In this document: piece by piece, positions 2,716 to 37,727 of the stretch | Layout of the letters: each line of letters starts with the position of its first letter | Numbering within the stretch: the stretch's first letter is position 1 | Origin: Candidatus Sulfopaludibacter sp. | GTDB taxonomy: Bacteria > Acidobacteriota > Terriglobia > Bryobacterales > Bryobacteraceae | DNA: 64,000 nt | Direction: 5' to 3' | Assembly (NCBI GenBank): GCA_031292755.1 | Contig: JARLGM010000004.1 | Coordinates: 1 to 64,000 of the forward strand | Notes under the pieces: generated by a model | The model's database searches: none | Told to the model about the DNA's origin: nothing | The model's input: the letters and a program-made list of their open reading frames with translations, nothing else | Made by a program: the position numbers and the translations under genes

Positions 2716-5469
2716 CTACCGGGCGCCGGCACTGCGCGGAAGGCTGATCAGGTTGGCAAGAAGTTGATACGCTCCATCGGTGCCCGCGGGAAGCTGGCGC
2801 CACAGACCGAGCCCGAGATAGATCCAGCGTCCCTTGCCCAGTTTGCCTTCCACCAGTGAGCCGAGCTTTTCGCCGGGATTGTCCTTGAACGAATCCGTCA
2901 TCGCGACCAGGTCCGTGTATTTCTTGTCCTTCTCGCCCAGGAAATAGAGGCCGCGCTCCTGCACCCAGTTGTCCCACGTCTTCGGTCCGATTTTGTTGGG
3001 GAAATTGAAAATGGGGTGCGCCGGCGCCAGCACCTTCACCGGCACCGTTTCATCGCAGATACGATTGCCGCTGACCTTGGCGGGGAACGGGCCGTACTCC
3101 GACTGGTTGAACTCCATCTTGTTGTACTGCACAATCACGGTGCCGCCGCGCTCCACGTAATCCAGAAGGCGGCGGTTGTAAGCGCGCAGGTCGGCGCGGC
3201 GCTCGTAGGCACGCACGCCGGTGATGATCACATCGTGTTTGGACAGATCGCCCCATGCCATCTCGTCCGGGTCGATAAAAGCCAGCTTGGCGCCCAACTG
3301 CTGGATGGCCTCGGGGACCTGATCGCCCACGCCTACAATGTATCCCACGTTGATGTTGGGGGTGATTTTCACGTCCACCACTTTGAGCGCGGTCTCCGCC
3401 GGCTTGATCACCTGGCGGCGCTGGATGTGCGGATATTCGATCTCCTGATATCCCGTGGTGAACTTCTCGCTCCCCGTGGCCGGCGAGGTCACCACCGCAC
3501 GGAGTGTGTACTCGCCGGTCTTCACGGCCACCGGAGCGGTCACCTGAAAGCGCGCCGAGAGCGATTCGTCTTCGTGCGCGAACGCAAGAGGCGCGCTGGC
3601 AGGCGTGGCTTTCCAACCCGCCGGCAGTTCCAGCGCCACGCTGGCCTGCGCCGCGCCCTTGGTTCCGTTGGTCACGGTGACGTGGATCTCGCGCTGCGCC
3701 GGTTTGGCGGCCGCGGCCGCCAGGGGAATCACCGCGAGCAGCGGCGTGACGCGCACCGAAAAGGCAGGCACCACGTTCATCTCCATGCGCTTGTCGCCCG
3801 CATACACGTCTTTCACGTAGCGATACTGCAGCGGGATCTCGCGAGTCACTTCCACGCTACCCGCCTTCACATGGAACGTGGCGCGAAACGGGCTCGGCGC
3901 GAAGGGCAAGCCGAACGGCACGCCCGCGTCGCAGACATTGATGGCATGGTTATCCGGGTGCTTCCAGTAATCGGTGTGGAAGTACGGTGTGGTGAGCTTG
4001 GCATCCTTCGGCACGTGAGCGTCTACCGGGCAGGTGAAGACGGCGTCTTTCTTCAAAACCTCCGGCTTGCAGGCTCCGGGAGAATCGAAGCCGGCCACCG
4101 TGACATTGGTGACCGCAACGTCACCGGCGCCGCGATTGACGGCGATAAGCGAAAGCTTGACCGGCTGTCCGGCGATCGCCAGGCCGTCATCGGCCACGGC
4201 GTCGAAGGTCACGCCGTGCGCGGCCAGGACCGCATCCTCGTAATCGCGCTCTTTCCGTTTCAGACGGAAGTCGATTTCATACGCCGCGGAGTCGGACAAC
4301 CCCAGCGACGGCAGTTGCGCGCGCAGAGCGCGAACGGCGGCGAGTCCGGCTTCCACCGGTGCGGCGGTGCCTGCATCATTGCCCGCGGCGAACGCCTCCT
4401 GCGCCTTCCGCCCCTCGGCTGTAATCGCCGCGAGACCGCCGGTGAGCACCTGCGGCGGGTTGGAGCCGGCATACTTTGCGAGAGCATTCAGGTTGGTATC
4501 GATGCCGTCCAGCAGCGAAGTTTCGTCCTTCCCCACCTGGCCGGGAATGCTGCTTTCCACCAGTTGATACCCACCGCCGCCGCGTCCTCCGCGTCCTCCT
4601 CCGCCGCCCGGCAGCGGAGGCAGTCCGCCCGTGCCCTGGCACTTGTGATAGCTGCGGGCGTCGCTTCCGATCTCGGCATACGTACGGCCCAGCAGGGGAT
4701 CGTAGGCCGCAGTGCTGACAGGCGTCAGCTTCACCGGCGGCGTCGCAGGTTGCGGTGGCGCCACCGGCGGAGCCTGCCCCCCGCGACCGCCGCGGCCGCC
4801 CGGTCCGCCGCCAAAGCCCGCACTGAAGTACAGCTTTTTCGGCTGCCACGGCCGGAGCCCTTCTTCGAACTGTTCGCGATACGCGGAGGGATCGCCCGCC
4901 GCGCGATACGCTTCGCGGACCAGCACGGTAGTGGCTTCGTGGGCCCGGTCGCCGCCGCGGCCCTGAATGTTCATCGTCACGATCAGGTCCGGACGAAGCG
5001 TGCGGATCAGGCGCACGTAATCGCCCACGATCTCCTGCCGCCCCCACTTATCGATCACCTCCTGAGGATCGAACGAGTAGCCATAATCGATGGCGCGCGT
5101 AAAGTACTGCTCCGCGCCATCGATGCGGTGCGCGGAAAGCAGTTCCGAAGTCCGCAGCACGCCCATATCGCCGAACAATTCGGGGCCGATCTCGTTCTGG
5201 CCGCCATCCCCGCGATTGTTTTGCACATCGATGGAGCGCAGTCCCAGGCCGTAGCAGAAATAGGCGAGCAGCGCGTTGGTCTCATCGTCGGGATGCGCCG
5301 GGGCCTGCATGAACGTGCCGGAGACGGTGAGTTTGCGGAGCAGCAGGCCGAGCGCGGCGTGCCCGCTATCCTGCGCCACAATGGGAAACGCCATGCGCGT
5401 TTGCGCCAGCACGAGCCCTCCCATCAGCACAACGGCAGTTCCAGTGGCAATCAGGGCAGAGCGTCTCAT
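2716..5469 (-). CDS. PIG-L/LmbE family deacetylase with NEW3-like and C-terminal GATase-like domains
   Basis: This 917-residue exported protein starts at 5469 (MRRSALIATGTAVVLMGGLVLA, a signal peptide or anchor). The N-terminal third is a PIG-L deacetylase domain with the metal-binding motif APAHPDDE near residue 55 and a later DRAHEATTVLV. The family removes acetyl groups from N-acetylglucosaminyl compounds in a zinc-dependent reaction. A long Gly-rich linker follows, then a beta-sandwich resembling NPCBM-associated NEW3 (VTVTNGTKGAAQASVALELP). The last 200 residues form an alpha/beta GATase-1-like fold (VGYIVGVGDQVPEAIQQLG, DVIITGVRAY, GGTVIVQYNKMEF). This large version is common in soil acidobacteria, with unknown substrate. 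Only 26 bp separate it from the divergent PhoD gene. Its stop lies 76 bp before propeller paralogue 1. Confidence 0.87.
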   Translation of the reverse strand: MRRSALIATGTAVVLMGGLVLAQTRMAFPIVAQDSGHAALGLLLRKLTVSGTFMQAPAHPDDETNALLAYFCYGLGLRSIDVQNNRGDGGQNEIGPELFGDMGVLRTSELLSAHRIDGAEQYFTRAIDYGYSFDPQEVIDKWGRQEIVGDYVRLIRTLRPDLIVTMNIQGRGGDRAHEATTVLVREAYRAAGDPSAYREQFEEGLRPWQPKKLYFSAGFGGGPGGRGGRGGQAPPVAPPQPATPPVKLTPVSTAAYDPLLGRTYAEIGSDARSYHKCQGTGGLPPLPGGGGGRGGRGGGGYQLVESSIPGQVGKDETSLLDGIDTNLNALAKYAGSNPPQVLTGGLAAITAEGRKAQEAFAAGNDAGTAAPVEAGLAAVRALRAQLPSLGLSDSAAYEIDFRLKRKERDYEDAVLAAHGVTFDAVADDGLAIAGQPVKLSLIAVNRGAGDVAVTNVTVAGFDSPGACKPEVLKKDAVFTCPVDAHVPKDAKLTTPYFHTDYWKHPDNHAINVCDAGVPFGLPFAPSPFRATFHVKAGSVEVTREIPLQYRYVKDVYAGDKRMEMNVVPAFSVRVTPLLAVIPLAAAAAKPAQREIHVTVTNGTKGAAQASVALELPAGWKATPASAPLAFAHEDESLSARFQVTAPVAVKTGEYTLRAVVTSPATGSEKFTTGYQEIEYPHIQRRQVIKPAETALKVVDVKITPNINVGYIVGVGDQVPEAIQQLGAKLAFIDPDEMAWGDLSKHDVIITGVRAYERRADLRAYNRRLLDYVERGGTVIVQYNKMEFNQSEYGPFPAKVSGNRICDETVPVKVLAPAHPIFNFPNKIGPKTWDNWVQERGLYFLGEKDKKYTDLVAMTDSFKDNPGEKLGSLVEGKLGKGRWIYLGLGLWRQLPAGTDGAYQLLANLISLPRSAGAR

Positions 5470-5495
5470 GGGATTCACGGCGTAGTATATATCAT

Positions 5496-7460
5496 GTGAC
5501 ACGCAGACGGTTCGCTGCAATCGCCGCCCAGATGGGCGCCTCCCTGGCATTCGGAGTATCGCGCGCCAATGCCGCATGGAACGAACGGCGCGAGTTCTAT
5601 CCGGAAGGGGTGGCATCGGGCGATCCGCATCCCGATAGCGTCCTGCTCTGGACCCGGCGCCCACCCATGCAGGGGACCGCCGCGCAGCATCTCACGCTGC
5701 AAGTGGCGGCCGATCCCCGGTTTCGAGAGATCGTCGCTACCGGCCACGCGCCCCTTTCGGCCGATGCCGATTGGACCTGCCGCATCCTGGCCGCGGGACT
5801 CCGCCCCTCGCGTGAATACTGGTACCGCTTCACCGATGAGCACGGCTTCGGCAGTCGCGTGGGACGCACCCTCACCGCGCCGGAAGCCGCCGACCAGCGC
5901 CCCGTCCGCTTCACCTTCGTGAGTTGCCAGAACGTGACGCAGGGCGCGCAGAATGCCTATCGCCGCATGATCTCCGAGGATGAAACGCGTCCCGCGGAGG
6001 AGCGGCTGCAATTTGTGCTGCACCTGGGCGATTTCGTGTACGAGATTGTCTGGTATCCCGAGGACCGTCCCCAGGGAATGTACGATCGCCGCATTCGCGA
6101 CGTGGTGCGCTATCCCCACGGGGAGAAGATCGGCGATTACCATGTGCCCACCACGGTGGACGATTACCGCGCCCTCTACCGCGGATATCTGCACGACCCG
6201 GACCTGCAGGATGCGCGCGCCCGCTGGCCTTTCGTCTGTATGTGGGACAATCACGAATTCTCCTGGAAGGGCTGGCAAAGCCTCCAGAATTTCGGCGGCG
6301 TGCGGCCGGCACAAACCCGCAAAGTGGCCGCTAACCAGGCTTGGTTCGAGTACCAGCCGGCCCGCGTGATCAAGACGGGCGGCGGCGGGCTGGAACGATT
6401 TGGACCGCCCGCCGTGCAGGACGCGCCCGTGCGGCATTTCGATGAGCACGGCCTCGGACAGGAGCCCGGCAACCTGGCCGCCATTGAAAGCCTGAAGTTG
6501 TTCCGCGCCTTTCGCTGGGGCCGCAACGTGGAACTGGTCCTCACCGACAACAGGTCGTTCCGCTCGGAGTGCGTGATGGACCGGCCCGAGGCTGCCCGGT
6601 TCCAATCGAAGGATTTCCCATGGGCGATTCCCGAAGAGGCGCTCGATGCTTTGGACGGCGGCCCTCCGCCCCAGTCCATGCTGGGCGCGGAGCAGAAGGC
6701 GTGGTTCCTGAAACGGCTGCAGGCGTCGAGCGCCAAGTGGAAGATTTGGGGCAACACTGTAGGCTCGCTCGACTGGCGCACGGATTTTCAGAACCTGCCG
6801 CACGGCGCCGGCCCGCGGTGGCCCGGCCAGGGCTATGCGATTTTCAGCGCGGACGATTGGGGCGGCTATCGCACCGAGCGGGCGGAGATACTGGATTTCG
6901 TGAAGCGGAACGGCATCGCGGGTTTTGCCTCGCTGGCGGGCGACCGGCATGCATTTTTCGCCGGAGTGCTTTCGAAGTCGCTGCCCCCGCGGGAATTCGA
7001 ACCGGTGGGCGTGGAGTTCATCGTGGGCTCCGTATCCGCGCCGGGCCTGTTTGAGGCGGCCAAATACGCCTTCGCGCAGGACCATCCCCTGCGCGCGGCG
7101 TTCCTTTATCAACCGCCCGGTGGCGGACTACAGCCGGCCATGAATCTCTCGGGACTGCACGGCGTCCGGGCCAGTCTGGCATTGCAAAAGACCAATGAGT
7201 TGAGCCAGGCGCGCGCGCTAAGCAACCCCGAAGTAGCGCCTCACCTTTCCTTCCTCGACTTGGGCGGCCACGGATACGCCATGGTGACCGCATCGCCGGA
7301 AACGCTCAATGTAGAGTTCGTCTGCGTGCCGCGCCCGCTGGAAGTCAGCGCCGATCTGGCATATCGAGTGACGCATCGTGTGGAGCTATGGAAGTCCGGC
7401 GAAAGACCCAGGATGCATCAAAAAGTCCTGGAAGGAACGCCACCCCTGGCCTGCGCTTAG
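5496..7460 (+). CDS. PhoD-family alkaline phosphatase/phosphodiesterase, Tat-exported
   Basis: This 654-residue protein starts at a GTG codon (5496); the ATG two bases earlier is followed at once by TGA and cannot be used. The N-terminus (MTRRRFAAIAAQMGASLAFG) is a twin-arginine signal. An Fn3-like PhoD N-domain follows (FYPEGVASGDPHPDSVLLWT, DWTCRILAAGLRPSREYWYR), then the metallophosphatase domain with LHLGDFVYE, MWDNHEFSWKGW, LTDNRSFRSE and LAGDRHAFFAG, the metal ligands and catalytic segments of PhoD. The enzymes hydrolyse phosphomono- or diesters in the periplasm with Ca/Fe. The 3' end is followed by the GxxExxY remnant on the opposite strand. It is divergent from the PIG-L gene, so any promoter must lie inside that gene's 5' end. 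Confidence 0.93.
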   Translation: MTRRRFAAIAAQMGASLAFGVSRANAAWNERREFYPEGVASGDPHPDSVLLWTRRPPMQGTAAQHLTLQVAADPRFREIVATGHAPLSADADWTCRILAAGLRPSREYWYRFTDEHGFGSRVGRTLTAPEAADQRPVRFTFVSCQNVTQGAQNAYRRMISEDETRPAEERLQFVLHLGDFVYEIVWYPEDRPQGMYDRRIRDVVRYPHGEKIGDYHVPTTVDDYRALYRGYLHDPDLQDARARWPFVCMWDNHEFSWKGWQSLQNFGGVRPAQTRKVAANQAWFEYQPARVIKTGGGGLERFGPPAVQDAPVRHFDEHGLGQEPGNLAAIESLKLFRAFRWGRNVELVLTDNRSFRSECVMDRPEAARFQSKDFPWAIPEEALDALDGGPPPQSMLGAEQKAWFLKRLQASSAKWKIWGNTVGSLDWRTDFQNLPHGAGPRWPGQGYAIFSADDWGGYRTERAEILDFVKRNGIAGFASLAGDRHAFFAGVLSKSLPPREFEPVGVEFIVGSVSAPGLFEAAKYAFAQDHPLRAAFLYQPPGGGLQPAMNLSGLHGVRASLALQKTNELSQARALSNPEVAPHLSFLDLGGHGYAMVTASPETLNVEFVCVPRPLEVSADLAYRVTHRVELWKSGERPRMHQKVLEGTPPLACA

Positions 7461-7487
7461 AACTCGAGCACCACGCGCTTCCACTCG

Positions 7488-7610
7488 ATCGTAAACTATC
7501 TCCAGAAATCCCGCCCCAAGCGTGTTGGAAACCTCAAAGACTGCGCCGAGCACAGTCTCAGTCAACGAATTCATCCATCCGCGTTCATCTGCGTTCATCT
7601 GCGGCCCATT
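7488..7610 (-). pseudogene. Truncated GxxExxY-family gene (5' remnant)
   Basis: On the minus strand, 28 codons from 7571 to 7488 read as the conserved start of the GxxExxY family (NSLTETVLGAVFEVSNTL, then GAGFLEIVYD). They follow the ADERG-type leader made by the repeat at 7576-7684. Intact members are about 120-130 residues of a PD-(D/E)XK-like fold. Here the frame continues only into sequence antisense to the PhoD tail, so about three quarters of the gene is missing. The ORF itself stays open to 7386, but homology ends near 7488. This is a deletion relic; no function is expected. Confidence 0.72.
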
Positions 7611-7684
7611 TCTTTTGTGCGCATTTCGCCCCAAGCCTCTCAAGAAGATTGTTCGCCGCAGATGAACGCAGATGAACGCAGATG
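7576..7684. repeat. Long inverted repeat built from GCAGATGAAC tandem units
   Basis: The left arm (7581-7605) is GCGTTCATCT twice plus GCGGC. Its perfect 25-base reverse complement is at 7655-7679. Pairing extends to 30 bases with one mismatch (7576 to 7684). The 49-base spacer is AT-richer than the arms. In RNA this would form a long hairpin. The same ten-base unit encodes the NADER-type leader of the adjacent GxxExxY remnant, so the repeat and the gene appear to travel together. No transposase is present. Confidence 0.85.
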
Positions 7685-7816
7685 TTTTGCAATACAAAAC
7701 ACCTCTCAGTCTCCGTAAGCTCGAAATCATTGATTTTCCGATCCATATCGTTTTTGCCAGCAGAACGACAACGCCTTTTGCGCAGCCGCTGGACTCGAAT
7801 TTGCAAACGCGTCAAC

Positions 7817-9049
7817 ATGAATGTCATGCTCCGCATTGCTGTCTGCCTCTGCGCCACGCTGTCGCTCTGCGCGCAAACCGCTCCCCCGAAAACCTGGATC
7901 GATCCCGACACCGGGCACCGCGTCTTCCGGCTCACCGGGGAACCCGGCAGCGCGAGCCTCTACTTCAACCAGAATGGATACAGCGCGGACGGGAAGAAGC
8001 TGATCTACACCACTCCGCAAGGGATCTCCACATTCGATCTTGCGACTCACGCCACCCGTAGCGTGGTGGAGGGCCGCGTGCGCGTCATCGTCACCGGGCG
8101 TAAGTCGCAAAGTGTGTACTACACCAAAGATGGGACAATCTATGCCACTGACGTGGACACCCTGGCAACTCGCGAGATCGCCAAACTGCCGGCGCGCAAC
8201 TCCGTTTCGGTGCCGACGGTAAATGCCGACGAGACTCTGTTGGCGGGCACCTACATTGAAAATGACGGGCAGGATTATAACTCCAACCGCTCGCAGCAAC
8301 CACAACAGCAAAGCCTGATCCAGCCGCCCAACAAAGGGCAGATGATGGAGCAGCGCCTGGCCGCCCATCTGCCCATGGCGATGTTCACCATCAGCGCCAA
8401 AACCGGCGAGGTGAAAGTGATCCATCGTGCCACCGACTGGCTGAATCATCTCGAATTCTCGCCCACCGATCCCACCTTGCTGATGTTCTGTCACGAAGGC
8501 CCCTGGCACAAGGTGGATCGCATCTGGACCATCCGGACCGATGGCTCGCACATCACCAAGGTCCACAACCGGACCATGGCCATGGAGATTTTCGGCCACG
8601 AGTTCTGGAGTCACGATGGGAAGACCATCTGGTACGACCTGCAGACGCCGCGCGGCGAGGATTTCTGGCTCGCCGGCTACAACGTGGAGACGGGTCAGCG
8701 CACCTGGTATCACCTGCAGCGGAACGAGTGGTCGATCCATTTCAATGTCACAGCCGATGGCACACTGTTTTGCGGCGATGGCGGCGATCCCCGCCAGGTG
8801 GCCAAGGCGCCCGACGGCGAATGGATCTATCTGTTCCGTCCGGAACTGTTTCGAAACCAGGGACTGGCCGATCCGGGCTTTGTCCAGCCGGGAGTGTTTC
8901 ACGCCGAAAGGCTGGTCAACATGTCGAAACACAAATACAACCTGGAACCCAACGTGAGTTTCACGCCGGATCAGAAGTGGGTGGTGTTCCGGTCGAACAT
9001 GTTCGGCCCGACGTACGTGTTCGCGGTGGAAGTGGAGAAGGCCCAATGA
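7817..9049 (+). CDS. Oligogalacturonate lyase-like beta-propeller protein (paralogue 2)
   Basis: This 410-residue protein starts at 7817 (MNVMLRIAVCLCATLSLCAQ, a signal peptide); a second ATG at 7826 is also possible. The mature part opens with TWIDPDTGHRVFRLTG. It carries the same family segments as paralogue 1: FCHEGPWHKVDRIW, GHEFWSHDGKTIWYDLQTPR and EWSIHFNVTADG, with the His/Gln positions of the oligogalacturonate-lyase metal site. It ends in an ATGA overlap with the rhamnogalacturonan lyase gene, so the two are co-transcribed and likely coupled. This overlap strongly favours a role in pectin or rhamnogalacturonan breakdown. The 5' region lies next to the inverted repeat at 7576-7684. 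Confidence 0.85.
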   Translation: MNVMLRIAVCLCATLSLCAQTAPPKTWIDPDTGHRVFRLTGEPGSASLYFNQNGYSADGKKLIYTTPQGISTFDLATHATRSVVEGRVRVIVTGRKSQSVYYTKDGTIYATDVDTLATREIAKLPARNSVSVPTVNADETLLAGTYIENDGQDYNSNRSQQPQQQSLIQPPNKGQMMEQRLAAHLPMAMFTISAKTGEVKVIHRATDWLNHLEFSPTDPTLLMFCHEGPWHKVDRIWTIRTDGSHITKVHNRTMAMEIFGHEFWSHDGKTIWYDLQTPRGEDFWLAGYNVETGQRTWYHLQRNEWSIHFNVTADGTLFCGDGGDPRQVAKAPDGEWIYLFRPELFRNQGLADPGFVQPGVFHAERLVNMSKHKYNLEPNVSFTPDQKWVVFRSNMFGPTYVFAVEVEKAQ

Positions 9050-27781: not shown

Positions 27782-29434
27782 TCACTGCACCGGCGGTTCG
27801 AAGTAAGTCTGCGCCAGTTCGGGCTTTTCGCGGATCGCCTTGCGCCAGTAGGAGCGCGCTTCGTCCTCCTGCCCCATGGCCATCAGCACGTGGCCGAGAT
27901 TCAGCAGGGCTTCGGCGAATTGCGGATTCTCGTTTAGTGCCTGTTGATACAAATTGACCGCGTCCTCGGTCTGTCCGCGCTTCTGGCAGATGAGGGCGGC
28001 GTTGTAGAACAACTCCGGGCTGCGTTCGCCCAGGTCCAGCAGCCTGCGATGCAGGTCGTAGGCTTCGTCGTAGTTCTGCTCTTCCATAGCGAGTGCGGCG
28101 AGGCCGCGGACCGCGTCGGAGGAATCGGGACGCATCACCAGGGTCTCCTGGAAGTAGCGTTTCGCCAGATCGGGCTTGCCGCTCCGCGCGAAGGCAATAC
28201 CGGCATTCAGACAGGCTTCGGGCCATTCGGGGCGCTTGGCGAGGCACTCCTGGAAGTCCGTCGCACTGGCTGCGTAATCGCCGCGCAACAGCCGCAGATA
28301 GCCCAGGCGGAAAAGGGCGTCGCTGAACTCGGGAGCATCTTCAGGGATCTTGGCGTACAGCTTCTCGGCCCAATTGCGCTCGTTCTGCTGCTCCAGGACC
28401 AGGGCCAGGTTCCACATCACACCGGCCTGGCGAGGGTCCACCTCCAGAGCTTTTTCGTAACAGCCGCGGGCAGCGGACAGGTCCGAGAGTTCCTGGTGTG
28501 CCACGCCGAGATTGAGCTGCGCCTGCGCCGATTGCGGGTTCAGCACGGTGGCCTGCTGGTAGGCTTGCGCGGCCTTTTGGAAGTTGCCCATTTTGTGATA
28601 GGCGACACCCAGGTTGAACCAGTTCTCAAACCGGTCGGGGACCATTTCCGAGAGGTTGCGGCAGAAGCGCGCGGCGCTCAGGTAATCGCCATCGGCGAAG
28701 GCCAGGGTCGCCATGGCTTCCATCGCTACGGTGGAATCGGGCTGGAGTTCGGTGAGCATGGCGGCATAGCGGCGCACGGATTCGTGATCTTTCCGCTCGA
28801 GGAACATGGCCACCAGGTTGGACAGCGCCTCTTCGCAGCGCGGATTCCGCGCCAGCACCTTGCGATACACCTCGACAGCTTCGTTGGGCCGTCCGGTCTG
28901 CTGCAGGCTCACGGCCTTGCCGAAGAGCGCCTGTTCGTGTTCGGGGAACAGCCGGAGGTATTTGTCGAGCGGTTCCATGGCCTGCGCGGGGCTGCCGGTA
29001 TGGATCATCGAAATGCCGAGCCCGAGGAGGGCGTCGGCGCGCGTGGCATCCACTTCGGCGGCGCGACGGAAGGCGTCGGCGGCTTCCTTCCAGTTCTTCA
29101 GGTTGCCCTGGCACACTGCCAGGTTGAAGTAGGCGGTGCGGTGCAGGGGCTCGAGTTCCACCAGTTGCGCGTAAGTGGAGGCGGCCGAATCGTAATCGCG
29201 CATTTCGTAGTGAATATGGCCGAGGGCCGAGTAGAGGGAGGCATCGCGCTCGCCCGCCTCAATGGCTTTGGTCAGCATTTTGGCGGCGCTTTCGCGCTTC
29301 CCCTCAAGGTGGAGGGAGACGGCTTTGGATAAAGTCCGGCTGCCGACGCGCTTGGGGCTTTTGGCATCGTCGATCGATGTTATGCCCAGCGGCATGGCGA
29401 CCACGTTAATTGATTCATTTGTCACGAATTCCAT
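27782..29434 (-). CDS. TPR-repeat protein
   Basis: This 550-residue protein starts at 29434 with GGAGG six bases upstream, inside the 3' end of the preceding gene (13-bp overlap). After about 45 residues it consists almost entirely of TPR repeats (about 14), for example LHRTAYFNLAVCQGNLKNW, PDRFENWFNLGVAYHKMGNF and PQFAEALLNLGHVLMAMGQ. No signal peptide or membrane segment. It is a protein-interaction scaffold, and the tight coupling suggests a partner in the zinc-ribbon membrane protein encoded upstream. Confidence 0.92.
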   Translation of the reverse strand: MEFVTNESINVVAMPLGITSIDDAKSPKRVGSRTLSKAVSLHLEGKRESAAKMLTKAIEAGERDASLYSALGHIHYEMRDYDSAASTYAQLVELEPLHRTAYFNLAVCQGNLKNWKEAADAFRRAAEVDATRADALLGLGISMIHTGSPAQAMEPLDKYLRLFPEHEQALFGKAVSLQQTGRPNEAVEVYRKVLARNPRCEEALSNLVAMFLERKDHESVRRYAAMLTELQPDSTVAMEAMATLAFADGDYLSAARFCRNLSEMVPDRFENWFNLGVAYHKMGNFQKAAQAYQQATVLNPQSAQAQLNLGVAHQELSDLSAARGCYEKALEVDPRQAGVMWNLALVLEQQNERNWAEKLYAKIPEDAPEFSDALFRLGYLRLLRGDYAASATDFQECLAKRPEWPEACLNAGIAFARSGKPDLAKRYFQETLVMRPDSSDAVRGLAALAMEEQNYDEAYDLHRRLLDLGERSPELFYNAALICQKRGQTEDAVNLYQQALNENPQFAEALLNLGHVLMAMGQEDEARSYWRKAIREKPELAQTYFEPPVQ

Positions 29435-32400
29435 TTTTCCCTCCTGCTGGCTTTGGTCACTCGGTTCTGAAGTTCTGCCGCGGTTGCGGCGAGTGCGGCT
29501 TCCTGCGTGCGCTCCGGCAAGGGTTGCGGCTGCGGAGTCGGCGTCGGTATCTGATCGGGCCATAAATCGGCGCTGGCGCGCGATCCATCGCCCAGCGTAT
29601 TGGCAACATAGGCACAGATGCGGCCAAGGAAATCTTCGTTCTTGGAGATCTTCATCCAGTAGAGCCGGGCCCGCTCGCCGGCTTCACTGAAGAAGCCAAC
29701 ACCGCCGGCCACCAGCGTATCGTCAATCCAGGTATCCACCAGTTGGCCGTCGACGGAGGTGAGCAGCTTGTTGCCGCGAACGTCCACCTCCACCTGCATG
29801 GGCCTGCTGTTGTGGACCATGACGTTCAAGGGAATCTCCACCGGGCGGCCTTTCTTGCCGGCGACCACGGGGTAGTGCACCATGGCGATGACAGGGCGGA
29901 GCCCCGGCTCGATCACCTTGAGTTTCATGGCGTAGTAGTTATCGGTGTTGGTGGCCCGCACGGCCCAACCCATGCTCTTGCTTTCGATCTGGCCGAAGAA
30001 CTCCAGGTGATAGTCCTTATATCCAAGCGACGGGTGGAACAGCGCCATTTGGCCGGTCTGCACATAGCCATCGGGGTGGCGCGACCAGCCGGGAGCCCAC
30101 TGTTTGGTCGCGGCGCCCCAGGCTTCCATGCCGGTCCGGAAGCTATCGGTCATGCTGGCGGCGGCACGGTCAGAGATCGCCGTGCGGATACGCGCCATGG
30201 CGCCGCGGGGCGCCGCTGCGGCGCGCGGGCTGCCGGCCAGGGGCGAACCGGCGGCGGGCGACAACGACCGAGACGGCGAATTCGCGGCCATATCTCCGAA
30301 CGAGATGTCGCGGCTGACCGCGGGCGTCTGGTTGCCGAGCTGAAGGGCGCCCATGCCGAACCAAAGAATGGCTCCCAGCACCAGGCAGGCGGCAAGCGCC
30401 CTGATGGCATACCGTACGCCGGCATTGCCGGCTTTCTTGCGCGCCACTTCGGGCAGGCGGAAGATGGCGGTGAAAGCCGGGTGGTCCTGCGTGGGCTTCT
30501 GCGGCGCAGTCTCTTCGGTGCGCTCGACGATGATCGGCAGGCCCATGCCGGGAAGAGTGGGCCGGTTCACCGGCGCGCACCAGGCCATCCCGCCGGTGGG
30601 GGCGCCGGAAGAGCGCTGGCAATGGAAATCCAAGGGCACGAAACCGCGCGCGACTACCGTTGCGGCGGGAGGTTCGGACCGGTACGGCTCGGGCGGTACG
30701 ACGAAGAGTGTACGCAACGGCTCCACGCCGGTGGTGTGTGCGGCCGCTGCCGGGCGGGACGGGCGCACCCCGGGCATAATGACCACGTTGACATCGTCGA
30801 TGCCGGGGTCTTTGGTTTGCGGCTGCGCCAACCGGGGCAGTTGCAATTCCGGAGTCACCGAGACCGGCGCCGGCCGGCACCCGCCGCAGGACGGCATGGT
30901 TTCTACCGGTTCAGCCGGAAGACCGGGAGCAGCACCCGCCAGATGCGCGGCAGGCTTCATCTGGCGGTGCACGAAAGCCGGCATCTGAAGAGCCTGGGCG
31001 CCGCAGGCCGGCACCAGCGCCGGTTCGCAGAGCGGAAACACCATGCGTTCCGCCGGCTCGGCCGCCAGACCGTGCGCGGCCGGCGCGAGGGACACGCGAG
31101 TTGCACCGGCACCCGCGGCCAGGAGCTCGCGCCCGTCCGGCATTCCCGGCTCGGGCAGTTCGTCATAAGCGGGCAGCGCGGCGGTGGCGGTCTTTGGCCA
31201 GACTCTCATGGAGACCGGCTCAGCGGTGAGAGGCGGCTTGGGGTGGAGGCTGACGGGCATCCACGGGTCGGTCACGGAGAAGATGTGGATGCCTGGCAGC
31301 CAGGCCTCGGGGACGCCGATGCTTTCCGGAACGGAGATGGCGAGTACTTCGATGCAAACCGGCTCGGCGGACAGATTCGGCATCCACTCGTTGCAGGCTT
31401 GCGGAACCGGGACGGGTTCGAGGCAGACATCCGCCGGCGGGACCTGGAATTTCGGCAGCCGGGGCTGAGCGGCGGCCGGGTCCGCGGCACTGGGACCGGG
31501 CGAAGCAGGAACCGGCTGGCTGGCGGATGCCGGTGTCCAGCGTTCGCGCACCCGCGGTTGGGGCGTGGATGCGAGACCGGGCTCGAACGGCACCACCTGG
31601 AATTTCGGCAGCCACGGCCGGACCATGGCCGCTTCCGCCACTTCCGGGGCGGGCAAAGCGTGCACAGGTTCCGCGCCGGGAGCCGGTGTCCAACGGGTGC
31701 GCGGTTTGGAGATGGGCACAGGTTCAAGAGAAGGCTCGAACGGCTCCACCTGGAATTTCGGCAGCGAGGGTTCAGTTGACGTAGCGTCAGCCGCGCCGGC
31801 GGCAGGCGACGCGTAGACCGACTCGACCGCGGGGATCGCTGTCCAGCGGTTGCGCGTTTGCGGCACTGGCACCGGCGCCAGATACGGTTCGGCAGCGGCG
31901 ATCTGAAGATCCGGAAGCCTGAGATGGGCCGGACACGCCGCTGCGAAGGTGGCCGCGGGCGAGGCATGCGCCGGCGTCACAGGTGCAGTGGAGACCTGTA
32001 AAGGTCGACCATACTCCGCCCGCGATAACAGGGGCTGTGAGGCAAGGGTAGCAAGGACGGGCGCAATTGCGTTAGCGGCCGCGGCGACATGGTGTGCCGA
32101 CCCGATGGCGAAGACCATCCGTTCGGCCGCTTCGGGACGAAGCGGCATGGGGCGGGTAGCCGCGTGCGGTCGACCATACTCCGCCCGCGATAACAGGCCC
32201 TCAAGGGCGCGGGTGGGGAGCACGGGCGCAGTTACGGCCGCGGCGCCCGCAACCGGATGTGCCGACGCCACGGCGAAAACCATCCGTTCGACCGCTTCGG
32301 GACGAAGCGGCATGGGGCGGGTCGCCAGGGGCGGCACGAATTCGGTTTCTCCCGGGGCGGGCAAACCGGTGGCGGCATCGATGACCAGACGCGGGATGCG

Positions 32401-32778
32401 CACGTCACCGCGGTATTCGGCAGGGGGAGCCTCGGACCCGGTCTGAACCGCATCGGCCGGTGCGGGAGGCGCAAGGGAACGGGGCGTGTCGCCCAGCAGG
32501 GGCGTGATCGAAAAAGGCAGGGGGCGGCGATAAATAAATGGCTCAAAGCCGTGTTCCAATTCCCAATTAATTCCGATGAATTGTTGGGCCCCGGATTGAA
32601 TTAGGAAATCGGACACAAATCCGGCGGGCGGTGCGGGAGGAGGCTCCGGCGCGCCAATTTTCGTCAACGCTTTTCCGAGCCTCTCCTTATACTGTTTGCG
32701 GTGCGCCGAGCTGCAAAACTCGTCATCGCGAATCAGTCGAAAAGGCCCGATTTCTTTTCCACAAAAAAGGCAGCCCAA
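29422..32778 (-). CDS. Zinc-ribbon, proline-rich, single-span membrane protein with C-terminal lectin-like domain
   Basis: This 1118-residue protein starts at TTG (32778) with GAGG about nine bases upstream. Residues 1-30 contain GCLFCGKEIG and FCSSAHRKQYK, a zinc-ribbon or TRASH-like motif (CxxC...CxxxH). Residues 45-780 are a proline/alanine-rich low-complexity region with internal repeats (two ATRPMPLRPEA units, four LPKFQV units). A single membrane helix follows near 790-815 (YAIRALAACLVLGAILWFG). The last 250 residues form a beta domain resembling laminin-G/3-keto-disaccharide hydrolase jelly rolls (SLGYKDYHLEFFGQIESKSMGW, NKLLTSVDGQLVDTWID). The cytoplasmic tail with a zinc ribbon and an outside lectin-like domain suggest a sensor or anchor. 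I do not know a described family. Confidence 0.72.
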   Translation of the reverse strand: MGCLFCGKEIGPFRLIRDDEFCSSAHRKQYKERLGKALTKIGAPEPPPAPPAGFVSDFLIQSGAQQFIGINWELEHGFEPFIYRRPLPFSITPLLGDTPRSLAPPAPADAVQTGSEAPPAEYRGDVRIPRLVIDAATGLPAPGETEFVPPLATRPMPLRPEAVERMVFAVASAHPVAGAAAVTAPVLPTRALEGLLSRAEYGRPHAATRPMPLRPEAAERMVFAIGSAHHVAAAANAIAPVLATLASQPLLSRAEYGRPLQVSTAPVTPAHASPAATFAAACPAHLRLPDLQIAAAEPYLAPVPVPQTRNRWTAIPAVESVYASPAAGAADATSTEPSLPKFQVEPFEPSLEPVPISKPRTRWTPAPGAEPVHALPAPEVAEAAMVRPWLPKFQVVPFEPGLASTPQPRVRERWTPASASQPVPASPGPSAADPAAAQPRLPKFQVPPADVCLEPVPVPQACNEWMPNLSAEPVCIEVLAISVPESIGVPEAWLPGIHIFSVTDPWMPVSLHPKPPLTAEPVSMRVWPKTATAALPAYDELPEPGMPDGRELLAAGAGATRVSLAPAAHGLAAEPAERMVFPLCEPALVPACGAQALQMPAFVHRQMKPAAHLAGAAPGLPAEPVETMPSCGGCRPAPVSVTPELQLPRLAQPQTKDPGIDDVNVVIMPGVRPSRPAAAAHTTGVEPLRTLFVVPPEPYRSEPPAATVVARGFVPLDFHCQRSSGAPTGGMAWCAPVNRPTLPGMGLPIIVERTEETAPQKPTQDHPAFTAIFRLPEVARKKAGNAGVRYAIRALAACLVLGAILWFGMGALQLGNQTPAVSRDISFGDMAANSPSRSLSPAAGSPLAGSPRAAAAPRGAMARIRTAISDRAAASMTDSFRTGMEAWGAATKQWAPGWSRHPDGYVQTGQMALFHPSLGYKDYHLEFFGQIESKSMGWAVRATNTDNYYAMKLKVIEPGLRPVIAMVHYPVVAGKKGRPVEIPLNVMVHNSRPMQVEVDVRGNKLLTSVDGQLVDTWIDDTLVAGGVGFFSEAGERARLYWMKISKNEDFLGRICAYVANTLGDGSRASADLWPDQIPTPTPQPQPLPERTQEAALAATAAELQNRVTKASRREKWNS
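32003..32197. repeat. In-frame 165-bp internal repeat of the proline-rich protein
   Basis: A 30-base segment starting GGTCGACCATACTCC is identical at 32003-32032 and 32168-32197. A second near-identical pair occurs around 32109-32157 and 32277-32323. The period is 165 bases, exactly 55 codons. Low substitution suggests a recent tandem duplication that could change in copy number. Confidence 0.8.
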
Positions 32779-32942: not shown

Positions 32943-34793
32943 TTGACTAGAACGATCTTGCTTTTTTTGTTTGGCTTGAGCGCTTGGGCGCAGCGCCGCC
33001 CGATGACGCCCGGCGATCTCTGGTCGTGGCGGCAGGTGGAAAGTCCGCGCATCGCCGCCGACGGCCAAGGGGTCGTTTATGTCGAAAAATGGAGTGATCG
33101 GACCCACAACGTTCTTTTCTCCGACCTGCAATTTGTGGATAGTAAGGGCAAGCAACAGCGCGCGCTGACCGAAGGATCCTTCCACGATCGGATGCCACGG
33201 TGGTCGCCCGATGGAACGCGCGTGGCGTTCCTGTCCGACCGGTCGGGAAAGGTACAGATTCACGTTGTGGCGCTGACGCCGGGGGCGGCGGTGGCACAAG
33301 TGACGCGGGGGGATCTGGAACCACTCACGCTGGCGTGGTCGCCCGACGGAAAATCACTGGCATTCACCGCGCGCATGACTCCGGAAGCGGTAAAGGCGCC
33401 GTGGGCTCCGGCATCGATCCTGCCATTGCTGCGCCCGCGCCCCCATGGGCCGGTGCAAATCTTCGTGGCGCCGGCGGCGGGCGGTACGCCGGCGCGTGTC
33501 ACCATCGGCGACTTGGATTACTCCGGCGAACCGGCATGGATGCCCGATAGCCGCTCGCTGGTCTGCGCCGCGCAGGGGCAGATCTTCAATATTCGTGTGG
33601 CCGACCATGCGGTGCGGGAACTGACCGGCAACCAATTGAGCAATCGGGAACCGGTGCCTTCGCCCGACGGCAGTAAAATCGCATGGATCGCCGCGGACGT
33701 GAAACCGCAGAATTACGTGGTGCGCCGGTTGTGGGTGATGAATGCCGACGGCGGGCGCGTGCGTATGCTGACCGGCGCGCTGGATCGCGACGTGATGGAT
33801 CCGCAATGGAGCAGCGATTCGCGCACCATCTATTTCCTGGCCGACGACCGGGGATCGACACACCTGTACGCCGGGCGGAACGACGGCACGGCGCGGCAGG
33901 TCACCACGCGACTGGAGCGGCTCCGCGATTTTTCGCTGGCCGATAACGGGCGCGCCGTGACGGTGCGCTCTACCGCGACCGAAGGCGGCAATGTGATCAC
34001 CTTCAGCGCGGATCTTCCCGGCGGAGTGGTGACGCTGGCCGAGCCGAACGATCGCCTGATGGCCGACCGGAATTTGGGCGACGTGGAGGAGATTCATTAC
34101 GATTCGGACGGCAAGAGCATACAGGGCTGGCTGGTTAAGCCTCCGCATTTCGAAGCCGGCAGGAAATATCCCCTGCTGCTGGACATTCGCGATGCGCCGC
34201 GCGCCATGTACGGCGTAGAATTCCAACTCCGCGCCCAGATTTTCGCGTCGGCGGGTTACGTGGTGTTGTGCGCCAATCCGCGCGGCACGCCGGGATACGG
34301 CGAAGAGTTCGGGCACCTGCTGCGCACGCGCTTTCCGGGAGACGATGCGGACGACTTGCTGCGCGGCGTCGAGTTCGTCATAAATAAAGGATACGTGGAT
34401 CCCAAACGGGTGACGATGGCGGGCGGCCTGGTGGCGGCGTGGCTGCTGGGTCATAGCGACCGGTTCACCGCGGCGGTGGCGCATCATGCGATCGTAGACT
34501 GGGCCGCGGATGTGGCGATGGATCCGGACGGCGTGCGGCGCGCGGCGGAGTGGATGGGCGCAATGCCGTGGGACGATCCGGAGCAGTACATGAAACGATC
34601 GCCGCTGTTTTTCGCGAGCAGCTTCAAAACGCCGACGCTGGTGATCGCACGCGATCCGGACCCGGAAAGCGAACAACTCTTCTTCGCGCTGCGCCAGCGC
34701 AAGGTGGAATCGGCGCTGGCGAGAATCGCGGAGGGCACGCCGTCCGCGCGCGTGCTGGAGTTGGAGGCAACTTTGGGGTGGCTGGGAAGATAG
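32943..34793 (+). CDS. S9-type prolyl-oligopeptidase-like protein lacking the catalytic triad
   Basis: This 616-residue secreted protein starts at TTG (32943; TRTILLFLFGLSAWAQ signal). The N-terminal propeller has PD40 blades (MPRWSPDGTRVAFLSDRSG, DPQWSSDSRTIYFLADDRG). The C-terminal domain aligns with acylaminoacyl-peptidases up to LCANPRGTPGYGEEFG. The nucleophile loop, normally GGSYGG or GGSGGG, is reduced to MAGGLVAAWLL and has no Ser. The Asp region is ARDPDPESEQLF in place of HGxxDxRVP. The His-containing tail is missing (ARIAEGTPSARV). It is probably a non-catalytic peptidase homologue, possibly a peptide-binding protein. Confidence 0.85.
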   Translation: MTRTILLFLFGLSAWAQRRPMTPGDLWSWRQVESPRIAADGQGVVYVEKWSDRTHNVLFSDLQFVDSKGKQQRALTEGSFHDRMPRWSPDGTRVAFLSDRSGKVQIHVVALTPGAAVAQVTRGDLEPLTLAWSPDGKSLAFTARMTPEAVKAPWAPASILPLLRPRPHGPVQIFVAPAAGGTPARVTIGDLDYSGEPAWMPDSRSLVCAAQGQIFNIRVADHAVRELTGNQLSNREPVPSPDGSKIAWIAADVKPQNYVVRRLWVMNADGGRVRMLTGALDRDVMDPQWSSDSRTIYFLADDRGSTHLYAGRNDGTARQVTTRLERLRDFSLADNGRAVTVRSTATEGGNVITFSADLPGGVVTLAEPNDRLMADRNLGDVEEIHYDSDGKSIQGWLVKPPHFEAGRKYPLLLDIRDAPRAMYGVEFQLRAQIFASAGYVVLCANPRGTPGYGEEFGHLLRTRFPGDDADDLLRGVEFVINKGYVDPKRVTMAGGLVAAWLLGHSDRFTAAVAHHAIVDWAADVAMDPDGVRRAAEWMGAMPWDDPEQYMKRSPLFFASSFKTPTLVIARDPDPESEQLFFALRQRKVESALARIAEGTPSARVLELEATLGWLGR

Positions 34794-34806
34794 AATTGGA
34801 TTGATT

Positions 34807-35902
34807 ATGCTTAAGCGCATCTACATCGACAACTTTCGTTGTCTGGTGAACTTCGAACTCCAACTGGGACGCCAGCAACTCATCATGGGTTTGAACGGGA
34901 GCGGCAAGTCGACGCTGCTGGACGCGCTGAGAGCGATCAAGGGGCTCGTGACCGGCGACAAGTCGCCGAGCGACGCGTTCCCCCCGGGACAGCCGCACGC
35001 GTTGGCAAAGCCTCTCACAACAGACATTCGAACTCGATGTGGATCTGGGCTCGGCTTATCGATTCAGGCTGGAACTCGATGTATGGGGATCGCCTCCCAA
35101 GGCTAAAATCAAGCGCGAATTGGTCCTCTGCGATCGCAAACCTGTGTTTGACTTCCTGGAGGGAGAGGTACATCTCTTCAATGACAACTTCCAAGATAAG
35201 GTTCAATATCCCTTTGACTGGTTCCGGTCCGCGCTAGCAACCGTCCAAGCGCGGCCGGAGAACCGAAAGCTCATAAAGTTCAAGAATTGGATTGAGAACC
35301 TGCATTGCCTGTCCTTGAACCCTTGGAACATGTCTGACCTCGCGGAGCGGGAGGAGGCACAACCAAAGCCGGACATGTCGAACTTTGCATCCTGGTATAG
35401 GTATATGAGTCAGGAGCGGGCTGCTTCGGCTTCAAAGCTCCAGGAACAACTGCGCAGGATAATGCCCGGGCTGGAGTCTTTTGATCTGCGCTCGGCGGGA
35501 ACTACTGCCCGCAGTGTGGTTCTGAGTTTCGTCGGCAACGGGGACGACCGCAAGGCGCAATTCGACGTAACGCTTAACGAACTTTCCGACGGTCAGCGGG
35601 TGATGATCTGCCTCTATGCACTTTTGAATTTCGTCGTCGGACCAGAGTCCTGCGTATTTTTGGACGAACCTGAGAACTATATAGCTATTCCAGAGATCCA
35701 GCCGTGGCTCATGGAATTGCAGGACCGTCTTGACGATGGCGGACAAGCTATCCTGATCTCTCATCACCCCGAAATGCCCAACTATCTGGCGCCGGAGCTT
35801 GGGCTGGTATTCGAGCGTACGGGGACCGGGCCAGCGCGAGTTCGAACTTACCACTCCGAATCTTCTCTTTCGCCGGCAGAACAGATGGCGCGAGGCTGGT
35901 GA
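34807..35902 (+). CDS. RecF/ABC-like ATPase, AAA type, with one frameshift
   Basis: The gene opens at 34807 (MLKRIYIDNFRCLVNFELQL) and has a Walker A (GLNGSGKST) near residue 30. The frame ends early, but the second frame from about 34985 continues TRWQSLSQQTFELDVDLG and encodes the rest: the ABC-signature-like LNELSDGQRVMICLY, Walker B CVFLDEPENYIAIPE and a His-switch segment LISHHPEMP. Removing one C from the six-C run at 34980-34985 restores a single frame of about 365 residues. The two halves clearly belong together. Function: ATPase of the RecF/OLD/AAA15 group, as used in several phage-defence systems. Base composition is less GC-rich than the neighbours, which suggests recent acquisition. 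Confidence 0.83.
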
Positions 35903-36450
35903 CGACTACGCGAATTGCCAAAATCATCCTTCTGGTTGAAGACCAAACGACCGAAAGCCTGCTTCGGCGGTATCTGCAGCGACTCGGCGACGACAACCGC
36001 AACATTCGCGTTAGGAGGATCCAGGATGGTAGAGGATCCGGAGAACAGTTCGTCCGTGAGCGTTACGCGTCTGAAGTGCGAGTACTGCGAACCTCGCATA
36101 CAAAGGCATGCCTGATCGTGTCTATTGACGCGGATACAAAAACTACTTCCGAACGCAGGCAGCAACTGGAGCGTGCGCTTCGCGACGCGGAGGAACCCGC
36201 GCGCGAAGCGCGCGAACGTATACTGAATCTGGTTCCGAAGAGGAACATAGAAACCTGGATTTTGTGTTTGAACTCGGCCGCCGACGACGAAACTACGGAT
36301 TATCGCCACGACTCGCGTGTCGATCCGAAGTCGATTCGTTCCGCCGCGCAAGCGCTGTACGCCTGGACCCGGCCAAACGCTCTCATCCCGGACATTTGCG
36401 TCGCGTCACTCACAGAGTGCCTGCCCGAATTCGACAGGATTCCGGAATAG
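35899..36450 (+). CDS. TOPRIM-fold-like protein paired with the ATPase
   Basis: This 183-residue protein starts at GTG in a GTGA overlap with the ATPase stop, so the two are coupled. The N-terminal strand KIILLVEDQTTESLL has the conserved Glu, CLIVSIDADTK has a DxD motif and PKRNIETWILCLN has an acidic residue near the end, the layout of TOPRIM/RloB/DUF4276-like nucleases. No signal peptide. I could not assign a precise family. The combination with the ATPase recalls PARIS, Gabija-like and OLD-type modules, in which ATPase sensing controls a nuclease. Confidence 0.66.
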   Translation: MTTTRIAKIILLVEDQTTESLLRRYLQRLGDDNRNIRVRRIQDGRGSGEQFVRERYASEVRVLRTSHTKACLIVSIDADTKTTSERRQQLERALRDAEEPAREARERILNLVPKRNIETWILCLNSAADDETTDYRHDSRVDPKSIRSAAQALYAWTRPNALIPDICVASLTECLPEFDRIPE

Positions 36451-36455
36451 TCGCT

Positions 36456-37727
36456 TCACTTCTTGTAGACCACCCCGCCCTTCATGACGAAGCTCACCTT
36501 CTGCACCGCCGTGATGTCCTCCAGCGGATTGCCTGGCACCGCGATGATGTCCGCGAAATATCCGGCCTTCACGTTGCCGGTCTGCCCCTGCCATCCCAGC
36601 AGCTTGGCGCCGTTCAATGTGCCGGCCTGAATGGCCGCCAGAGGAGTCATGCCGAATTTCACCATCAGGACGAATTCGCGCGCCTGCGTGCCGTGGGGAA
36701 ATGGTCCGACGTCCGATCCCACCGCGAAAGGCACTCCCGCCGCCAGTTGTTTCTTGAATTCCTGCGCGTGATAGCCCACCAGCACCTTCTCCCGCTCGGC
36801 CTGCTCCGGCGTAGGCGCATGGTCCGCGAAGAACTCGGAGATCGTGAAGGTCGGCACGGCGAAGATCTGCTTCTCGCGCATGATCCGCATGGTCTCATCG
36901 CTCAACTGGTCGGCGTGATCGATCGAAACAACCCCGGCTCGCGCCGCGTACAGCGTGCCCGGTTCGCCGGTGGCATGCACCGCGACGTACTTACCCACGC
37001 GGGCCGCTTCCTGCACCGCGGCGCGCAATTCCGCCTCGGTGTACTGAAACGGAGTGTGGAACTTGCCGTCGCGAAAAGAATCCGGCCCGGTCTCGTAAAT
37101 CTTGGTGAAGTCGGCGCCTTCCTTATACTGCTGGCGCATCACCTTCACCAGATCCAGGGCATCATTGGCATAGTCGGCATTGGAAAGCACGTGCTGAGCC
37201 GGATTGAAATCGTTGGCGTCTTCGTGCCCGCCCAGAATGTCCACCGCATTGCCGCTGACGCGCAGACGCGGTCCAGGAAACATGCCTTTATTAATCGCAT
37301 TGCGGACGGCGGTATCGGCCGAGCCCGCACCCTCGGTTCCCATGTCGCGCTCGGCGGTGAAACCCGCCAGCAGGTCGTCCCTGGCCGCCGATACGGCGAT
37401 CAGCGTGCGTTGCGGAACGGACTCCTGGACCGTCTGCAAGTCTTCCGCGCCGGGATGCAGGAACAGGTGAGTGTGCGAATCGATCAGGCCCGGCATCAGC
37501 GTGCGATCGCCCAGATCGATGATTTCCGCTCCCGCGGGGTGGGTCACCTGCGTGCCCACCGCCACAATGCGTTCGTTCTGTACCAGCACCTCGGCGGGAG
37601 CCAGGATTTTGCCGGTTTCGACATCCAGCAGGCGCGCCGCGTGCAGCACGATGGCGCGCGTTTGACCGAACACGGCGGACCCCGAAAGCAGGGCCGCCAG
37701 CGCGGCAAGGCAGATTGTGCGTTTCAC
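36456..37727 (-). CDS. Secreted metal-dependent amidohydrolase
   Basis: This 423-residue protein has a signal peptide (MKRTICLAALAALLSGSAVFG). The amidohydrolase superfamily signatures are complete: the HxH of LIDSHTHLFLHPG, the probable carbamoylated Lys in ADFTKIYETG, the His residues of YVAVHATGE and GVVSIDHADQL, and the Asp in AVGSDVGPFPHG. The type is imidazolonepropionase/Xaa-Pro dipeptidase-like. The substrate is unknown. It is the last gene of the operon led by the peroxiredoxin, overlapping the DsbA-like gene by ATGA. Confidence 0.93.
   Translation of the reverse strand: MKRTICLAALAALLSGSAVFGQTRAIVLHAARLLDVETGKILAPAEVLVQNERIVAVGTQVTHPAGAEIIDLGDRTLMPGLIDSHTHLFLHPGAEDLQTVQESVPQRTLIAVSAARDDLLAGFTAERDMGTEGAGSADTAVRNAINKGMFPGPRLRVSGNAVDILGGHEDANDFNPAQHVLSNADYANDALDLVKVMRQQYKEGADFTKIYETGPDSFRDGKFHTPFQYTEAELRAAVQEAARVGKYVAVHATGEPGTLYAARAGVVSIDHADQLSDETMRIMREKQIFAVPTFTISEFFADHAPTPEQAEREKVLVGYHAQEFKKQLAAGVPFAVGSDVGPFPHGTQAREFVLMVKFGMTPLAAIQAGTLNGAKLLGWQGQTGNVKAGYFADIIAVPGNPLEDITAVQKVSFVMKGGVVYKK

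Follow-up and report, generated by a model that had tools for sequence, protein, structure and literature searches.

The ATPase gene and the small gene behind it in the window (the whole stretch of DNA that was analysed, 64,000 nucleotides long and taken from a draft genome of 278 contigs) form a two-gene module that recurs in other genomes. Protein A is, by its sequence motifs, a Rad50/OLD-type ABC ATPase, and protein B is, by its predicted topology and motif, a TOPRIM-type nuclease. The pair probably represents an uncatalogued subfamily related to PARIS, although the Aravind ABC-ATPase survey may already have described it. The explanation that we favour, and consider fairly probable, is a horizontally moving two-gene immune cassette composed of a PARIS-like sensor ATPase and a TOPRIM effector. 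The features of the locus are listed in Table 1.

Table 1. Features of the ATPase/TOPRIM locus and its neighbours (window positions)
Feature	Position	Strand	Evidence
ATPase gene, N-terminal part, ~58 codons, Walker A GLNGSGKST	34807-34980	+	Pfam AAA_15, AAA_23; 76% identity to L082
Frameshift segment at C6 run	34978-35005	+	Comparison with L082 and L083; frame switch between 34980 and 35018
ATPase gene, C-terminal part, shifted frame: LSDGQR, Walker B FLDEPEN, ISHHPE switch, ARGW	35018-35902	+	Pfam AAA_21; 63% identity to L082
Small TOPRIM-type nuclease gene B (predicted), 183 aa	35899-36450	+	AF2 model, invariant residues, relatives in 80 loci
Interval taken up by the ATPase/TOPRIM pair	34791-36457		Homology to relatives' genomes stops on either side
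Left neighbour, S9-type peptidase, chromosomal, outside the module	32943-34793	+	ORF list; 57% homologue in G002
Right neighbour, amidohydrolase, chromosomal, outside the module	36456-37727	-	ORF list; 87% identity in same-genus G001

The two genes overlap by GTGA, as in the original prediction, with the GTG start of gene B at 35899 and the TGA stop of the ATPase gene at 35900-35902. Homology to the genome G002 reaches window position 34786, at the 3' end of the S9 peptidase gene, and homology to G001, a congeneric genome, starts at 36458, at the 3' end of the amidohydrolase gene. The deviating base composition described at the outset was borne out: the GC content of the pair is 0.557 compared with a mean of 0.630 (SD 0.023) across the rest of the 64 kb, and none of 591 equal-sized, overlapping segments taken elsewhere in the 64 kb is as low. 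No tRNA insertion site was found in the window. Beside the S9 peptidase lies a block (29422-32778, minus strand) with a Pro/Ala-rich low-complexity ORF of 1118 aa and an open antisense frame of 678 aa, which is partly conserved in G002. Six bases past the amidohydrolase, G001 encodes a 776-aa protein with an HEACHFWYGH motif (L113, 5860-8187, minus strand), a different protein from that of the window; the amidohydrolase-side spot is variable.

The motifs predicted for the ATPase, namely Walker A (GLNGSGKS), the LSDGQR signature and Walker B (FLDEPEN), are all present and are accompanied by an AAA_15 match, but they do not share one ORF. The gene is split over two frames, with Walker A read from 34807 and LSDGQR, Walker B and ISHHPE one base on; a single intact ATPase ORF in the window was rejected for this reason. 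Compared with its nearest intact relative, L082 (63-76% identical), the window has one extra base (net +1) in the interval 34978-35005, where a CCCCCC run lies, and the frame is unbroken in both L082 and L083. Because third codon positions account for most of the divergence from the relatives, in the two ATPase halves as well as in gene B, the shift either arose recently or reflects an assembly error, and a sequencing or assembly error at the C run may account for it in this draft genome. Recombination at the frameshift, an idea derived from the higher GC3 of the N-terminal part, was rejected since the intact L082 shows the same contrast. With its ATPase frameshifted, the window copy may not work; barring an assembly error at this point, it is probably inactive. 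We give about an even chance to the view that it is a decaying remnant without present function, a view compatible with the explanation favoured for the family as a whole. The frameshift points in this direction, as does the HEC-01-like pair of the same genome, the ATPase of which is likewise broken, whereas the catalytic residues and the coding-type divergence kept in B and in both ATPase halves, together with the chance that the extra base in the homopolymer is an error of the draft assembly, speak against it. That HEC-01-like pair (L234, G000:C229:17001-29000, 5870-7674, minus strand) consists of a DUF4276 protein with an open frame and an AAA ATPase that is apparently interrupted by an in-frame TAG at Walker B (VAIE*PELG).

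Searched with the frameshift in place, the N-terminal part of the window ATPase matches Pfam AAA_15 at 36.9 bits (cut-off 32.1) as well as AAA_23, and the C-terminal part matches AAA_21 at 35.7 bits (cut-off 27). The ATPases of the family are ~370 aa long, and in 45 aligned intact members the residues of Walker A are conserved, as are the LS(D/E)GQ signature, DEPEN, SHHP, a TRW motif and an ARGW at the C terminus. Walker A, LSxGQ, Walker B and the H-switch, which mark the ABC/OLD type, are thus found together in intact relatives, and the window has all of them in its two frames. A model of the ATPase from the relative L003 (pLDDT 92.5) retrieved Rad50 as its top Foldseek match, followed by PtuA of Septu and the ATPases of retrons Ec78/Eco7 (E 1e-12 to 1e-10). 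All 45 ATPases are matched about equally by the PADLOC models AriA, AbiLi, HEC-01A, mad3 and NsnB, several HEC-01A models matching 44-45 of the 45 (best 2e-26) and AriA, AbiLi and mad3 doing equally well. These near-equal matches make the ATPase superfamily clear but not the named system.

Protein B proved to be the 183-residue protein originally described, with the E...DxD...E spacing formed by E14, D77xD79 and E118, the last of these within NIETW (116-120), which is itself part of PKRNIETW. All 64 aligned relatives have E14, D15, R64, D77, D79, P113, R115, N116, E118, T119, W120 and Y135; these motifs are far beyond chance, although some conserved segments served as search probes and their conservation is therefore partly biased by the search. 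The TOPRIM-like fold proposed earlier agrees with the AF2 model (pLDDT 94.8, pTM 0.90), in which the predicted elements follow the order beta1-E14, alpha, beta2, alpha, beta3-DxD, alpha, beta4 and then the PKRNIETW helix (strands at 8-13, 36-40, 70-75 and 108-111, helices at 16-28, 48-65 and 83-96, acidic residues E14, D77, D79 and E106/E118). Protein B thereby combines the hallmarks of TOPRIM: a glutamate after beta1, alternating beta and alpha elements, DxD after beta3 and a further acidic residue. Foldseek against the PDB placed the OLD TOPRIM domains 6nk8 and 6njx among the top matches, weakly (TM 0.4) and mixed with lumazine synthases, so that the TOPRIM assignment rests on topology and motif; against viral models, an RloB-like protein ranked third. 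A PDB sequence search with B gave no meaningful match.

Searches of Pfam and NCBIfam with the window's B gave nothing above cut-off, the best matches being DUF4276 (25.1 bits, cut-off 30.2) and PADLOC HEC-01B (E 5e-6). Weak Pfam matches among the 64 members were to DUF3226 (13), DUF4276 (6) and RloB (2; best E 9.6e-4), and none of the 64 matched DUF4435 at E 0.01. The likeness to DUF4276 and RloB that had been suggested holds for the order of the motifs, E14...D77xD79...NIETW in B running parallel to E...DxD...NPCFELW in RloB, but not for the profiles: DUF4276 stays under its cut-off, the RloB profile (PF13707) does not match the window's B, and hhalign of B against RloB is not significant (E 0.34). 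Against genuine DUF4276 (PF14103), hhalign gave E 1.8e-4 and a probability of 48%, with the catalytic positions in register.

The two genes are closely coupled across genomes. In 79 of 80 homologous loci of other genomes (split and contig-edge copies included) the ATPase gene lies directly upstream of B, and the side-by-side arrangement was also found in all 17 loci of the window's order and in all 28 further loci, mostly cyanobacterial and desulfobacterial. The genes mostly overlap by 4-14 nt, most commonly by 8, 14 or 4 nt, and no third gene recurs at these loci apart from lineage-specific neighbours. The occurrence of the pair is patchy: of 150 genomes from the window's family, 20 have it (in 15 of 76 genera), as do 27 of 193 Nostocaceae genomes and 5 of the 395 genomes from one phylum, and a genome with the pair almost always has a single copy. 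It was not found in G001, which is ~80% complete. The tree of B spans 13 phylum labels; its branching reflects the phyla to some extent, but they are also mixed. No relative examined carries the pair at the window's chromosomal position. About half of the examined Nostocaceae copies are flanked by an E1-E2 ATPase gene on one side and a MerR gene on the other, a site that is occupied in L164 and L176 and empty in L183 and L184, where ~90-110 bases separate the flanks; within the window's own genus no complete empty site was found, only two half-junctions. Broken or remnant copies occur in L011 (a B remnant without ATPase), L056, L076, L081 and L026, as well as in the window. Patchiness, site changes, empty sites and broken copies indicate an accessory module that is gained and lost, and the horizontal transfer proposed originally is supported by the low GC content, the patchy occurrence, the different chromosomal sites and the empty sites. 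No copy was detected in the phage, plasmid and IMG/VR collections, the viral scan having used one short motif.

Several copies of the pair adjoin known or candidate defence genes. In L019 (Desulforhabdus), L070 and L075 (two Desulfobacterales-type loci) it directly precedes pglZ-brxL of a Type I BREX system, and in L019 and L070 it directly follows the end of pglX; PADLOC confirmed PglX, PglZ and BrxL in L019, PglZ in L070, and PglZ and BrxL in L075, the rest being assigned by homology. The three BREX-linked copies are related and may stem from a single recruitment event. This association fits a known pattern, since TOPRIM-linked OLD-ABC modules recur in BREX neighbourhoods in a published survey (PMC12839542). 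In L019, IS3-type transposase genes (6827-8895) lie upstream of a truncated pglX end, so the ATPase/TOPRIM pair is intact there in what may be a disrupted BREX locus. In two Hormoscilla genomes the pair is directly followed by a HEC-01-type ATPase/DUF4276 pair (identified by profile in L065 and by homology in L076). Copies in BREX operons or beside HEC-01 mean that the pair does occur near defence genes, contrary to what was named as a refutation of the original prediction, but this holds for a minority: most copies lie amid ordinary genes, and a broad location in defence islands was rejected. No general defence enrichment was found in the near and far neighbours of 37 loci, which belong mostly to housekeeping families, and within the window's own order the neighbours include few, scattered defence matches. 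In a Magnetococcales locus (L030, 8883-17588) the pair has an RNase adapter-like P-loop gene on one side and SbcD/SbcC-like genes on the other.

That the pair could not be assigned to a nameable system was upheld, no match to any named system exceeding its cut-off. PARIS, which occurs standalone or in BREX neighbourhoods (PMC9122126, PMC12839542), shares with the pair the arrangement of an ABC/OLD-type ATPase gene and, behind it, a second gene for a TOPRIM nuclease, and the window ATPase exceeds the AAA_15 or AAA_21 threshold by which PARIS ATPases are recognised. However, PARIS is also defined by a partner or fusion with DUF4435 (PF14491) (PMC9122126), which AriB carries and no B member matches, and this places the pair outside PARIS by its defining domain; moreover, AriA measures 464 aa in PDB chains against ~370 aa for the family ATPase. 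An open frame with an ATP-binding motif and a DUF4435 match at a contig end of the same genome (L233, G000:C273:22001-28392, 4881-6392, plus strand) is possibly a fused PARIS-type gene. HEC-01, a PADLOC candidate, likewise joins an AAA_21/AAA_15 ATPase to an E...D...E TOPRIM-like protein and is among the closest profiles for both genes, but family B has DxD and PKRNIETW instead of VEGQTEE...HEFE, and a true HEC-01 pair adjoins the family pair as a separate module in L065. One HEC-01B model weakly matches 22 of the 64 B members, with a best E of 1.7e-7 compared with 1e-71 to 1e-82 for true HEC-01B near family members. Among the papers accessible to our search, none was found on DUF4276 or HEC-01. 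It is unlikely that the pair is a divergent PARIS or HEC-01 in the strict sense and so already named: the same two-gene logic, the matches of A to the AriA and HEC-01A models and the weak matches of B to HEC-01B and DUF4276 would fit such an identity, but the lack of DUF4435 in all 64 members, the gulf in HEC-01B scores and the sub-threshold DUF4276 score oppose it. Other systems differ in their composition. OLD and Gabija GajA also unite an ABC ATPase with a TOPRIM nuclease, and the OLD domains named above are near B by structure, but they carry both in one polypeptide instead of the two separate genes of the loci examined here, and Gabija adds a helicase where the family pair has no third gene. 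Septu PtuA and retron Ec78 share the ATPase fold (Foldseek E about 1e-11), but the partner nuclease in Septu is an HNH protein (PtuB) rather than a TOPRIM. MADS is distinguished by its scores (NCBIfam MAD3 40.4 bits against a cut-off of 420; mad4 E 1.1e-3), and no other MADS genes recur in the neighbourhoods of the pair.

Among these systems PARIS is the closest worked-out case, resembling the pair in its two-gene layout, in the type of its ATPase and nuclease and in its BREX context. Its own features are an AriA hexamer that holds AriB and tRNA cleavage on a trigger; when a phage protein such as Ocr is sensed, AriB becomes a tRNA-cutting TOPRIM nuclease (PMC12409363). By analogy, protein A (~370 aa) would serve as sensor and holder and protein B (~183 aa) as a minimal TOPRIM two-metal nuclease, which A would keep inactive; on recognition of a phage component by A, B would be released or activated and would cut host (or invader) nucleic acid, stopping the infection. 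We infer the anti-phage activity of the pair, and likewise the binding of A to B, the trigger and the substrate, which may be tRNA or DNA. The generally ordinary neighbours, the lack of copies in phage, plasmid and viral collections, the weak Foldseek match of B and the frameshifted window ATPase were counted against an immune role. A function in DNA repair or chromosome maintenance, in which a RecF/Rad50-like ATPase would act with a TOPRIM partner in the manner of RecF-RecR, would suit the ordinary neighbourhoods, the top structural match of protein A to Rad50 and the SbcCD-like genes adjoining the pair in L030, and it has a precedent in Cran1, an archaeal OLD protein with a cell-cycle rather than an antiviral role (PMC12796447). 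Nevertheless, ~86% of the species in two families lack the pair, as does G001 from the window's own genus, and the decayed copies, site changes, empty sites and embedding in BREX are at odds with such a role; patchiness, decay and empty sites argue against housekeeping, which is improbable. Improbable, too, is a toxin-antitoxin addiction pair with B as toxic nuclease and A as ATP-dependent antitoxin, acting without dedicated phage sensing. The tight overlap of the two genes, A ahead of B, the small size of the nuclease and the insertion of lone cassettes at ordinary loci are all compatible with addiction, but the window's combination of an intact B frame and a broken A, the B remnant without A in L011, the absence from plasmids and the finding that loss of ariA in PARIS is not toxic (PMC9122126) weigh indirectly against it. 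A bolder form of the immune reading, possible but tentative, would set the pair apart from PARIS (class 4) as a split OLD-type immunity class in its own right. The pair would then have a trigger and a TOPRIM substrate of its own and would span ~13 phyla, and Type I BREX would have taken it up in sulphate reducers to guard against anti-restriction proteins.

If the favoured PARIS-like immune cassette is active, the pair would be a widespread, uncatalogued two-gene addition to the ABC-ATPase/TOPRIM immune group, carried by ~13-14% of the sampled species in two quite different bacterial families and matched just weakly and non-specifically by current defence libraries. At ~550 residues in all, an active pair would offer a minimal model for the control of a TOPRIM nuclease by an OLD-type ATPase, and its position within the BREX operon makes the idea of a guard of the restriction system directly testable.
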